From Marinitoga sp. 1197 (lineage in GTDB: Bacteria; Thermotogota; Thermotogae; Petrotogales; Petrotogaceae), in assembly GCF_001021165.1 (NCBI RefSeq), contig NZ_AZAY01000027.1, forward strand, positions 1-46,010: 46,010 nucleotides of DNA. The letters run 5' to 3'. The notes under the pieces were generated by a model. It had not been told where the DNA came from. It was given only the letters and a program-made list of their open reading frames with translations, and did not search any database. The position numbers were made by a program, and so were the translations under genes. Positions 29,975 through 33,654 of the stretch are shown one piece after another. The stretch's first letter is position 1. Each line of letters begins with the position of its first letter.

Positions 29975-29990
29975 TCATTTCCATCTCTTT
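29959..29990. terminator. Bidirectional terminator inside both convergent coding ends
   Basis: AAAGAGATGGAAAT (29959-29972) pairs perfectly over 14 bp with ATTTCCATCTCTTT (29977-29990) around the loop AATC. The two stop codons are adjacent in the loop region (sdaAA ends at 29974, the patatin gene at 29975). A/T-rich flanks on both sides allow termination in both directions. Confidence 0.85.
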
Positions 29991-30772
29991 AATTTATTTT
30001 CGGAATCTTTATAACCCAAATCTATTAATTTTTTGGAATACTCACCTGAAAAATTCAAAGGAAATGGAACTGAATCTGAAGGTCTTATTATGATTACATT
30101 TTTCTTTGTTAATAAAAATGTAATTAATAACCAATCTGTTGGGTTATCTATTACTGGAAATACGCCTATTATTTTATCATATCCATATTTCTCTGCCAAC
30201 AATGCCGGATATACATTTGAAAATACTCCACCATCTGTATATTTCTTTCCTTCTATTTCAATTGCTCCAAATAACGGATAACTTGCACTAGCGAATATAT
30301 AATCTACCATTCTTCCTTTCATTTCATTCTTTCTGACAAAAACAGGTTTAAAATCTGTTATATTAAATGCTAGTATCCCATAATCATATCTTGAATTCAA
30401 TATTAATTCTTCAGATATTATCGTATTTAAAAAAGTATAAAGAGGTGAAGGGTCAAAAATAAAAGGCTTTAACTTTTTACTATGATCTTTTATATCAAGA
30501 TCAAAAACTTTTTCTGCGTTTATATTTTTCCATAATTCTTCAACTTTATCCAATTTTCCCATAACAAACCCTGCACCATTCAACGCACCTGCTGAAACTC
30601 CATATATTCCATCTATTTTAATGTTATTTTCAATAATATATTTTAAAATTCCAATTTCATAGGCTCCAGCTGCACCTCCACCACCCAGAACAAGTAAAGT
30701 TTTTGAAAATATTATTGTGAAAAATATCATTATATATAATATATATGTGGTTAGTAATTTTTTATTATAAAT
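29975..30772 (-). CDS. Patatin-like phospholipase, probably exported (apparent AUU start)
   Basis: A serine lipase/acyl hydrolase of the patatin family. The oxyanion-hole loop LGGGGAAGAYEIG, the nucleophile elbow GVSAGAL (GxSxG) and the catalytic DGG motif (YTDGGVFSN) are all present, so it should be active on phospholipids or lysophospholipids. ATG 30730 lacks any ribosome site and would leave half a signal peptide. ATT at 30772 lies seven bases after GGGGAG (30785-30780 on the minus strand). It gives 265 residues with N-terminal YNKKLLTTYILYIMIFF, a proper basic-then-hydrophobic signal or anchor sequence. The frame is open over this whole stretch. Confidence 0.87.
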   Translation of the reverse strand: MYNKKLLTTYILYIMIFFTIIFSKTLLVLGGGGAAGAYEIGILKYIIENNIKIDGIYGVSAGALNGAGFVMGKLDKVEELWKNINAEKVFDLDIKDHSKKLKPFIFDPSPLYTFLNTIISEELILNSRYDYGILAFNITDFKPVFVRKNEMKGRMVDYIFASASYPLFGAIEIEGKKYTDGGVFSNVYPALLAEKYGYDKIIGVFPVIDNPTDWLLITFLLTKKNVIIIRPSDSVPFPLNFSGEYSKKLIDLGYKDSENKLKRWK

Positions 30773-30860: not shown

Positions 30861-30889
30861 TTGACAAAAATTTACAGTTGTTGTATAAT
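30861..30889 (+). promoter_or_regulatory. Consensus promoter of the nad operon
   Basis: TTGACA (30861-30866) and TATAAT (30884-30889) are exactly 17 bases apart. The palindromic element begins seven bases further on, so the transcript would carry the whole element in its leader. A second TATAAT created by the flanking duplication lies at 31096-31101. Confidence 0.8.
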
Positions 30890-30895
30890 AAAGTA

Positions 30896-31095
30896 AAAGG
30901 TGTCCAAAAAGTCAAATTCACTCAGGCAGCTCGATTGCTTATCCTTAAAATTATTCATTCTCAGCCGTCGCTCAGATTTTTCATCCATGAAAAAGCTTCA
31001 CTCAAAAAAACGTCCTGTTTTTTTGACGGCTTTCATTCATAATTTTAAGGCAATCTTCGAGCCTTCATTTCATTTTAGACTTTTTAGACAGTCTT
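30896..31095 (+). mobile_element. 200-base palindromic MITE-like element with 12-base target duplication
   Basis: The identical 12-mer TATAATAAAGTA stands directly on both sides (30884-30895 and 31096-31107). The two ends are inverted repeats, with 14 of 18 outermost positions matching. Pairing continues inward: GCTCG with CGAGC, GATTGC with GCAATC, CCTTAAAATTAT (30943-30954) with ATAATTTTAAGG (31039-31050), AGCCGTC (30963-30969) with GACGGCT (31025-31031). The centre holds two perfect hairpins, TTTTTCAT/ATGAAAAA (30977-30994) and AAAAAAAC/GTTTTTTT (31004-31024). A 66-codon frame inside it has no ribosome site and is not considered a gene. No transposase is encoded, so it would need one elsewhere. 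Confidence 0.8.
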
Positions 31096-31131
31096 TATAA
31101 TAAAGTATAATAAAGACATGGAGGCGATATT

Positions 31132-31884
31132 TTGAAAGTATTTCTTTTAGGAGCGGGAAATTCTGCAAAAATTATTCTGGATGAATTGGATTTCGAAAAG
31201 GTTTATGTATATGATAAAAATTTCAAACAATTTGAAAAACTAAAAGAGATACATAATGAAATCGAATATTTAGATATTAAAAACTTAGAAACTACTGATG
31301 TTGATTATATCATAGAAGTAGCTTCTGTTGAAGCATTAAAGAATTATGGACTAAAACTCCTTGATATGAATAAAAATTTAATTGTCTTAAGCACAGGCGC
31401 TTTTGCAGATAAAACTTTTAGATATAATTTTGTGAAAAAATTAAATAACAAAAATATTAATGTTTACGTTGTATCTGGAGCAATCGGTGGAATTGATCTA
31501 ATAAGAACTATAAGCAATAAAATAAATACAATCACATTAATAACCCGAAAAACACCAAAAAGTCTTGGAATTGATATTACAAAAGAAAAAATAATTTTTG
31601 AAGGTAATTCAATAGAAGCTATTGAAAGATTTCCTAAAAATATAAATGTTGCTGTTACGCTGGCATTGGCAATAAAAAATTTTGAAAAGGTAAAAGTTAA
31701 AATTATAGCAGATCCTTTTATTGAAAGAAATGTACATTCAATAGAAATAAAATCAGAGGTTGGAAATTATACCTTTAAATTTGAAAATTATCCATCAAAA
31801 AATCCAAAAACCAGTTATCTGGCACCATTATCTATAGTTGGATTATTGAAAAACATTCACTCAAATTTCAAAATAGGAGGATAA
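31132..31884 (+). CDS. nadX: L-aspartate dehydrogenase NadX
   Basis: Converts L-aspartate with NAD(P)+ to iminoaspartate, which NadA uses; it replaces the oxygen- or fumarate-dependent oxidase NadB, as in T. maritima. The 250-residue protein begins with the Rossmann loop [10 protein letters not shown]. It contains STGAFAD, the catalytic-domain segment [13 protein letters not shown], and the family's C-terminal [13 protein letters not shown]. The start is TTG behind GGAGGCG. It is the first gene of nadX-nadA-nadC with only two bases to nadA. The palindromic element separates it from its original promoter. Confidence 0.95.
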
Positions 31885-31886
31885 AA

Positions 31887-32825
31887 ATGATAACAGAAAC
31901 TGTTGTTGAAAAAGATTTTTTAATAAAAAAAATAAAAGAGTTAAAAAAGAAAAAGGATTATACAATATTAGCCCATAATTATCAAATTGATGAATTACAG
32001 GATTTAGCAGATATAACAGGGGATTCATTACAACTTGCAAAACTTGCAACAGAAATAGAAAACGATAAAATACTATTTCTTGGTGTGGATTTCATGGCAG
32101 AAACATTGAAAATATTAAACCCAGAAAAAAAGATATTAGTTCCAACAACAGGAGCCACATGTCCAATGGCAAATTCTCTAACACCAGAAATAATAAAAGA
32201 ATATAAAAAAAGATTTTCAAATGCTCCTGTTGTATTATATGTAAACAGCACTGCAGAATGCAAAGCACTTGCTGATTACACATGTACATCAGCCAATGCC
32301 GTTGATGTGGTAAAAAAAATAGATGCAGATACAATATTATTTGGTCCAGATAAAAACCTTGGTTCATATGTCGCAGAAAAAACTGGGAAAAAAATTATTC
32401 CAATTCCTGGTGGAACGGGATATTGTTATGTACATAATAGATTTTCAACAGAAGATGTAAAAATAGTAAAAGAAAAGTATCCAAACGCAAAAATAATAAT
32501 ACATCCAGAGTCGCCTAAAGAAGTGAGAGATTTATGTGAATATATTGGCAGTACAGGTCAGATGATGAAATTTCCAGAAACAGATGGATCCAATGAGTTT
32601 ATAATTGGAACAGAAATTGGAATGATTCATAAGTTGCAAAAAACATTTAAAAATAAAAAATTCTATCCATTAAAAGAATTAGCAATATGTAATAATATGA
32701 AGAAAAATAATCTGAAAAATGTATATCTTTCTTTATTGAATGAAGAACATGAAATTACCTTACCACAAGAAATTATAGAAAAGGCAAAAATTCCAATTCT
32801 AAACATGTTTAAAATAATGGAGTGA
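31887..32825 (+). CDS. nadA: Quinolinate synthase NadA
   Basis: Condenses iminoaspartate with dihydroxyacetone phosphate to quinolinate using a [4Fe-4S] cluster. The 312-residue length is typical of the short thermophile form. The three cluster cysteines are C92 (ATCPMA), C180 (GYCYVH) and C268 (AICNNM), with spacing like that of other NadA proteins. [30 protein letters not shown] and IIHPESP are further signatures. AGGAGG lies upstream of the ATG. Confidence 0.97.
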
Positions 32826-32829
32826 TTAT

Positions 32830-33654
32830 ATGTTTGAATATGAAATAAATCTATTAAAAGAATGGATAGAAAGAGATAATCAATTTTTTGACATTGCTTC
32901 ATATGAATTAAGAAGAAAAGAAACAAAAGGAACTATAATTTTAAAAAACTCAAATGTTATATTATCTGGAATAGAAATAATAGAAAAGTTATTAAAAGAA
33001 TATAAAATAAAAACAGAGTTTTATTTTAAAGATGGTAATTTTGTTAAAAGTGGAATTATAGGTAAAATAAGTGGGAATGCTTATAATATTTTAACGGTTG
33101 AAAGAACAATGTTAAACATACTTTCTTTAATGAGCGCTATTGCAACAAAAACAAATAAATTAGTTAGTAAGATTAATGGAAAAACAAAACTTGCTGCTAC
33201 AAGAAAAGTATTTCCAGGACTGGGAAACCTTGAAAAAATTGCTGTGTTACATGGTGGTGGCGATACTCATCGATGGAGTTTATCAGAAAGTATAATGATA
33301 AAGGATAACCATATAAAATTATATGATGGTGTGGAAAATGCCATAAGTGCTGTGAAAAAATATAAATCTTTTACAAAAAAAATAGAGATAGAAGTTGAAA
33401 GTAAAGATGATGCATTTCTTGCAATAAAATCTGGTGTAGACATTATTATGCTCGATAATTTTGATTCAAAAAATGCAAAAATTCTTGCCCGAGAATTAAA
33501 AGAAAGATATCCGCAAATAATTATAGAAGTTTCTGGTGGAATTAGTGAAGATAATTATCTTGAATATGTTGATGATAATATTGACATAATTTCAATGGGA
33601 AAATTAACAACAGAAGTAAATTATATTGATTTTTCATTGGAAATAACAAATTGA
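32830..33654 (+). CDS. nadC: Nicotinate-nucleotide pyrophosphorylase (carboxylating) NadC
   Basis: Transfers phosphoribose from PRPP to quinolinate with loss of CO2, giving nicotinate mononucleotide, the last step of this operon. At 274 aa it has family length. The active-site segment reads ATRKVFPGLGNLEKIAVLHG, then GGDTHRWSLSESIMIKDNH. This differs from the common TRKTTPGLR...NHR form and looks more like the archaeal variants. The C-terminal barrel has IEIEVES, IMLDNF and EVSGGI. Four bases separate it from nadA. A terminator follows directly. Confidence 0.95.
   Translation: MFEYEINLLKEWIERDNQFFDIASYELRRKETKGTIILKNSNVILSGIEIIEKLLKEYKIKTEFYFKDGNFVKSGIIGKISGNAYNILTVERTMLNILSLMSAIATKTNKLVSKINGKTKLAATRKVFPGLGNLEKIAVLHGGGDTHRWSLSESIMIKDNHIKLYDGVENAISAVKKYKSFTKKIEIEVESKDDAFLAIKSGVDIIMLDNFDSKNAKILARELKERYPQIIIEVSGGISEDNYLEYVDDNIDIISMGKLTTEVNYIDFSLEITN

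Follow-up and report, generated by a model that had tools for sequence, protein, structure and literature searches.

The nadX locus

The window, that is, the whole stretch of 46,010 nucleotides of Marinitoga sp. 1197 DNA that was analysed, carries the nadX, nadA and nadC genes and, divergent from them, a patatin-like gene. From the patatin-like gene to nadX, the intergenic region contains a promoter, the sequence TATAATAAAGTA, a 200-bp element, a second TATAATAAAGTA and the nadX ribosome site, which lies between the right TATAATAAAGTA and the TTG start codon of nadX at 31132. The features are the following.

29975-30730, - strand: divergent patatin-like gene (Pfam Patatin), downstream of the element on the GGA-loop strand
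30861-30889, + strand: original nadX promoter, TTGACA-17-TATAAT, 12/12 to consensus, kept 5' of nadX across the genus
30884-30895, no strand: left copy of the duplicated target, TATAATAAAGTA, containing the -10 box
30896-31095, - strand (the strand of the GGA-loop RNA): 200-bp mobile element (MITE), ends uncertain by a few bases
30901-30913, + strand: left terminal inverted repeat, TGTCCAAAAAGTC
30924-31067, - strand: match to TwoAYGGAY RNA (RF01731), 45.1 bits for a gathering cut-off of 43
30955-31038, - strand: conserved core, a junction with two GGA-loop hairpins, 87.2 bits to model R1, with covariation
30977-30994, - strand: hairpin 2, loop C-AUGGAU-G, from fold and alignment
31003-31025, - strand: hairpin 1, loop C-AGGAC-G, from fold and alignment
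31074-31111, + strand: possible hybrid promoters TTTAGA-16-TATAAT and TTTAGA-17-TATAAT, 10/12 each, weak
31078-31090, - strand: right terminal inverted repeat, TGTCTAAAAAGTC, with its neighbours TGTCTAAAAAGTCTAAA, matching the partner insertion sequence
31096-31107, no strand: right copy of the duplicated target, TATAATAAAGTA, 200 bp after the left copy
31132-33654, + strand: nadX, nadA and nadC, 3' of the element, by Pfam (nadX as Asp_DH_C)

A sequence-only reading had described a perfect promoter, with its -10 box inside a 12-base target duplication, ahead of a palindromic insertion and a nad operon. The promoter, the operon and the overlap of the left TATAATAAAGTA with TATAAT were all as described. 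As for the duplication, identical copies of TATAATAAAGTA do flank the element, but the right copy continues into the near-repeat TATAATAAAGTATAATAAAG, which leaves the exact length of the duplication at this site uncertain. Because of this near-repeat, the second TATAAT that had been seen beside nadX is in fact present twice on the right side.

We also noticed a TTTAC-N17-GTAAA motif (30872-30898) that overlaps the nadX -10 box and is kept in most of the genus (L082-L085). It is possibly the operator of an NAD repressor. The insertion point lies in the right half of this motif, whose GTAAA is rebuilt by the opening bases of the element. One congener (G001) has two nadX genes, 73-74% identical to that of the window, and the promoter region is conserved at each.

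A short non-coding element inserted at an AT-rich target

On the forward strand, the inverted ends of the element read TGTCCAAAAAGTC (30901-30913) and GACTTTTTAGACA (31078-31090). Its only reading frame is a 66-codon GTG frame, and the element is thus short, non-coding and bounded by terminal inverted repeats, as a MITE is. Both strands are predicted to fold, with energies of -51.6 kcal/mol for the + strand (z -6.0) and -64.7 kcal/mol for the - strand (z -8.2), values equalled by none of 200 shuffles in either case. The palindromic element with a folded interior is therefore real, with exactly 200 bp between the target copies.

We compared the nadX upstream regions of six congeneric genomes, which hold seven nadX genes. 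The element was absent from 7/7, and in six of them the promoter region aligned as an empty site, reading TATAATAAAGTA in four and TATAATATGGTA in two; the region of congener G002 was too diverged for confident alignment. In its own genome, BLAST with the element found 48 matching places in both orientations, about 30 of them at a minimum of 81% identity, and a covariance model of the core (R1) found 71 copies. In the six congeners the same model detected 42, 36, 25, 5, 1 and 1 copies. Outside the genus it gave six weaker matches, all in a single further genus of the family, and the remaining members of the set of 40 relatives had none.

Target duplication was examined at copies with TGTC-type ends from this genus; the automatic search for ends and duplications covered all subfamilies and worked mainly for that type. 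At 44 copies, the longest direct repeat shared by left and right flanks averaged 9.1 nt, as against 5.7 (sd 0.22) when flanks were exchanged among copies, and the mean never exceeded 6.7 in 2000 such permutations. A repeat of at least 8 nt was present at 34 of the 44. The duplication is typically ~8-12 nt long and AT-rich, with 12 nt at nadX and mostly 8-12 nt elsewhere. These computations establish that the element is mobile and was inserted at nadX, with duplication of its target and with empty sites in relatives.

Using gene positions from a simple ORF picker, we examined the surroundings of 101 copies. The downstream gene was co-directional in 51 and opposite in 49 (P 0.92), which indicates no leader-type bias and departs from the consistent co-directional orientation of cis-regulatory leaders. 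The upstream gene was opposite in 65 versus 35 (P 0.0035), and divergent gene pairs outnumbered convergent ones (24 versus 8), whereas the short repeats of Pseudomonas fluorescens SBW25 favour convergent pairs (PMC2718517).

Longer versions of the element, of 273-402 bp, occur at seven loci. Their ends and core are unchanged and extra hairpins, none with an ORF, are inserted on one side, indicating that the element is modular. A second subfamily in the same genome (L339-L351) has the ends TGTCCAATTAGTAAAG and a different core. At L348 (1296-1379), the left end of the first subfamily is joined to the core of the second, and this copy is likely a recombinant of the two.

A partner insertion sequence with the same ends

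The terminal sequence also occurs in orphan copies, and by following these we arrived at an insertion sequence whose ends read TAG-N2-TGTC[CT]AAAAAGTCTAA. These ends (TAG-N2-TGTCYAAAAAGTCTAA) match the right end of the element, TGTCTAAAAAGTCTAAA, and the insertion sequence encodes a DDE_Tnp_1 transposase (Pfam, E 1.5e-12; 48.1 bits for a cut-off of 23). An autonomous element with shared TGTCYAAAAAGTCTAA ends and a transposase, as expected of the partner of a MITE, is therefore present. One copy in the same genome runs off contig 1 and the others are degraded; in congener G005 several copies stop at contig ends, as expected from a collapsed multicopy repeat; and congener G001 has a degraded copy of ~1 kb with both ends. 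Among these copies, none could be read as an intact full-length partner on one contig.

The transposase could not be assigned to the IS4 family, its C-terminal fragment scoring 34.5 bits for an NCBIfam equivalog cut-off of 115, nor to any named IS family by the NCBIfam cut-offs, and a search by sequence in the PDB returned no relative. Judging by the ends that the two have in common, the element is most likely moved in trans by the DDE_Tnp_1 transposase of the insertion sequence. Together with the empty sites, the dozens of copies in the same genome and the direct repeats at most of them, the identical ends of the insertion sequence give good support to the insertion proposed from the sequence.

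The interior belongs to the TwoAYGGAY RNA family

The fold of the interior had been recognised from the sequence, and it is real; its identity had been missed. On the - strand, the interior matches TwoAYGGAY RNA, with a score for the window copy that is only 2 bits above the Rfam cut-off (45.1 versus 43). Other copies of the genus score up to 52.2 bits and several subfamilies pass the gathering cut-off.

We wrote a structure of 22 pairs by hand on a MAFFT alignment of twenty diverse elements, and aligned 99 distinct sequences, out of 121 model matches, to the covariance model. Among these 99, 97.3% of cells were standard pairs and 18 of the 22 pairs had changed on both sides. The covariation score was 0.62, as compared with 0.19 for shuffled and 0.03-0.14 for slid controls, a figure flattered by the fact that this alignment was fitted to the model. 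The MAFFT alignment of twenty agreed with this (97.3% of cells paired, both sides changed in 15 pairs), and RNAalifold on a separate alignment gave 21/34. Both A-Y-GGA-Y loops persist although entire stems are exchanged, their fixed letters occurring in at least ~95% of the distinct copies that are not gapped at the position concerned. The two AYGGAY terminal loops that define RF01731 are thus a feature of the 99 copies, apart from AGGAC in place of the full motif in the first hairpin of the window copy and the loss of GGA from hairpin 2 in some members of one subfamily. Stem covariation and loop conservation are established by these computations, as is membership of Rfam clan CL00106, which TwoAYGGAY shares with E. 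coli CsrB.

In hairpin 2, GCGAAG/CTGAGC is also found in the stem and would give tandem G-A pairs, reported as characteristic of TwoAYGGAY (PMC4333381). G-U cells outnumber A-C cells on the GGA strand (36 versus 15), and for this reason we favour the GGA strand as the RNA strand.

The family extends well beyond this genus. Searched with Rfam TwoAYGGAY, a genome of Pseudomonas kilonensis gives 108 matches and a second Pseudomonas gives 47, and our genus core model finds Pseudomonas elements at E 1.5e-8. TwoAYGGAY also occurs in 33 of 200 genomes from the family of one Lachnospiraceae hit, many of which hold at least a dozen copies. In this genus, in Pseudomonas and in Clostridia, copies often lie as inverted pairs, 100-550 bp apart (six loci noted), with no obvious gene between them and with outer palindrome arms that vary by copy. 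The Pseudomonas elements (for instance L158, 1350-2150, and five further loci) have GCCCC/GGGGC at their ends, and a conserved stretch, gcgttttgcttacttttgcgcttctcaaaagtgagccgc, follows them.

A possible link with CsrA

The hairpin recognised by CsrA/RsmA resembles a C-A-Y-GGA-Y-G loop. A csrA gene was present in 7/7 genomes of the genus, so that paired GGA loops and a host CsrA, as expected of a CsrA-sequestering RNA, occur together. Among Lachnospiraceae, csrA scored above cut-off in 32 of 33 TwoAYGGAY carriers and in 18 of 41 non-carriers tested (Fisher P 6e-7, uncorrected for ancestry and motility). In general, csrA goes with motility. Binding of TwoAYGGAY RNAs to CsrA was proposed by the RMfam authors in 2014 (PMC4333381), and none of the papers searched linked TwoAYGGAY or CsrA with MITEs. 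We infer that the element RNA may bind CsrA, and that this may benefit the element or the host.

Incidentally, some Lachnospiraceae have extra, longer csrA genes, with seven csrA matches in G043. Two of these genes were examined as candidate element-encoded partners (L391, 1876-2926; L390, 1977-3218) and the idea was dropped, as each has a flagellin gene on one side and a small tyrosine-recombinase-like gene on the other.

An ordinary MITE might keep such hairpins for reasons of DNA or transcription that are unconnected with CsrA, such as cruciform formation, transposase recognition or insulation from read-through. Both strands of the long palindrome fold, orientation to the downstream gene is unbiased, and silent hairpin MITEs are common, the P. 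fluorescens repeats being an example (PMC2718517). A mere need for hairpins does not predict, however, that the A-Y-GGA-Y loops stay while the stems exchange; recurrence of the loop pair in other phyla, the excess of G-U over A-C cells and the association with csrA also speak against it. We find this explanation unlikely, though likelier than the other rivals considered below.

Consequences of the insertion for nadX

The insertion lengthens the nadX leader by ~212 nt. As had been read from the sequence, it moved nadX away from its promoter and gave the leader 200+ nt of structured RNA. That the element attenuates, stabilises or newly regulates NAD synthesis, also suggested there, is a weak reading. 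On the nadX sense strand, a search for an intrinsic terminator or attenuator found none, and the predicted hairpin that holds the nadX ribosome site was identical when the leader was folded with and without the element. On the nadX strand the sequence is ATCCAT, so nadX mRNA does not contain the GGA loops and the conserved RNA is antisense to nadX; control of nadX by CsrA through the window copy was discarded on this ground. A match to RsaH across the right junction (20.5 bits for a cut-off of 50) was attributed to chance. At the right end, the TTTAGA of the element lies 16-17 bp before the two TATAAT boxes; similar matches are frequent in this AT-rich region, which has 7 promoter-like sites of such grade as against 3.1 (sd 1.6) in shuffles.

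Could the insertion nonetheless be a selected change in nad regulation, acting on nadXAC expression through the structured leader or a hybrid promoter? The length of the structured leader and the two 10/12 sites would suit this idea. Against it stand the commonness of such sites, the empty terminator search, the unchanged fold around the ribosome site and the occurrence of the insertion in one species only, which gives no sign of selection at the locus. Strong effects on nadX are not supported, and we judge a selected regulatory change to be quite improbable. A native nad leader, riboswitch or attenuator, to which a conserved structured RNA directly 5' of a biosynthetic operon and the filing of RF01731 by Rfam as cis-regulatory might have pointed, is rejected as wholly implausible by the empty sites and the copy number, since instead of all relatives having the element at nadX and no copies elsewhere, it is absent from nadX in six congeneric genomes and has tens of copies at unrelated genes, with its conserved strand antisense to nadX.

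Discussion

We think it probable that nadX is preceded by a non-coding MITE, mobilised in trans, whose TwoAYGGAY interior makes an RNA that binds CsrA. Insertion took place at TATAATAAAGTA, immediately after the -10 box of the nadXAC promoter, and duplicated this target; the MITE was most likely moved by the DDE_Tnp_1 transposase of a full-size insertion sequence with TAG-N2-TGTCYAAAAAGTCTAA ends. Its interior is a TwoAYGGAY-type RNA in which a junction and two hairpins present A-Y-GGA-Y loops, with the structure kept by compensatory changes. A copy read in the direction of the GGA strand would give an element RNA able to bind CsrA dimers, and a genome with tens of copies would hold a dispersed set of CsrA-binding RNAs travelling with the element. 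At nadX, where the element is antisense to the GGA-loop RNA, its insertion mainly lengthens the leader.

The element resembles TwoAYGGAY RNA (RF01731, clan CL00106) in having two A-Y-GGA-Y-loop hairpins on a junction and a score above the gathering cut-off. TwoAYGGAY has been described as a candidate structured or cis-regulatory RNA, whereas in the present case it makes up the body of an element that has inverted ends, duplicates its target and reaches 71 copies. With the CsrA-sequestering sRNAs CsrB, RsmY and RsmZ, of which CsrB is in the same clan, the element shares hairpin loops bearing GGA. Those are single-locus sRNA genes, in contrast to a dispersed repeat with two loops per copy, whose RNA is predicted and with no promoter of its own shown. 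Like the MITE-like repeats of P. fluorescens (R0, R2 and others; Silby et al. 2009, PMC2718517), the element is short, non-coding, multicopy and intergenic with inverted ends, and R0 and R2 share their ends with an IS (PMC2718517). It differs from them by an interior that is a conserved RNA fold common to elements of other phyla.

A proposed CsrA-binding RNA thus appears to be carried by mobile elements, and an RNA body of the CsrA type on repeated elements looks general, target duplications having been examined in this genus. This suggests that the TwoAYGGAY family spreads as mobile DNA and is not a set of native regulators. More tentatively, and as a reading that we hold to be somewhat less likely than not, TwoAYGGAY could be a class of mobile elements, widespread among Thermotogota, Clostridia and Gammaproteobacteria, that keeps its twin CsrA-binding hairpins because CsrA binding helps the element, with up to about a hundred mobile CsrA sites per genome. 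Possible gains would be that element transcripts are silenced or stabilised, or that the host is tuned.

TwoAYGGAY, catalogued as a candidate regulatory RNA family and suggested in 2014 to be a CsrA sponge, here forms the body of a transposable element that duplicates its target and has a partner encoding a transposase. Rfam TwoAYGGAY matches in genomes need not, then, mark regulated genes. Should CsrA bind these loops, the abundance of CsrA sites in a cell would depend on how many copies of a mobile element it carries, which would link transposition to global post-transcriptional control.
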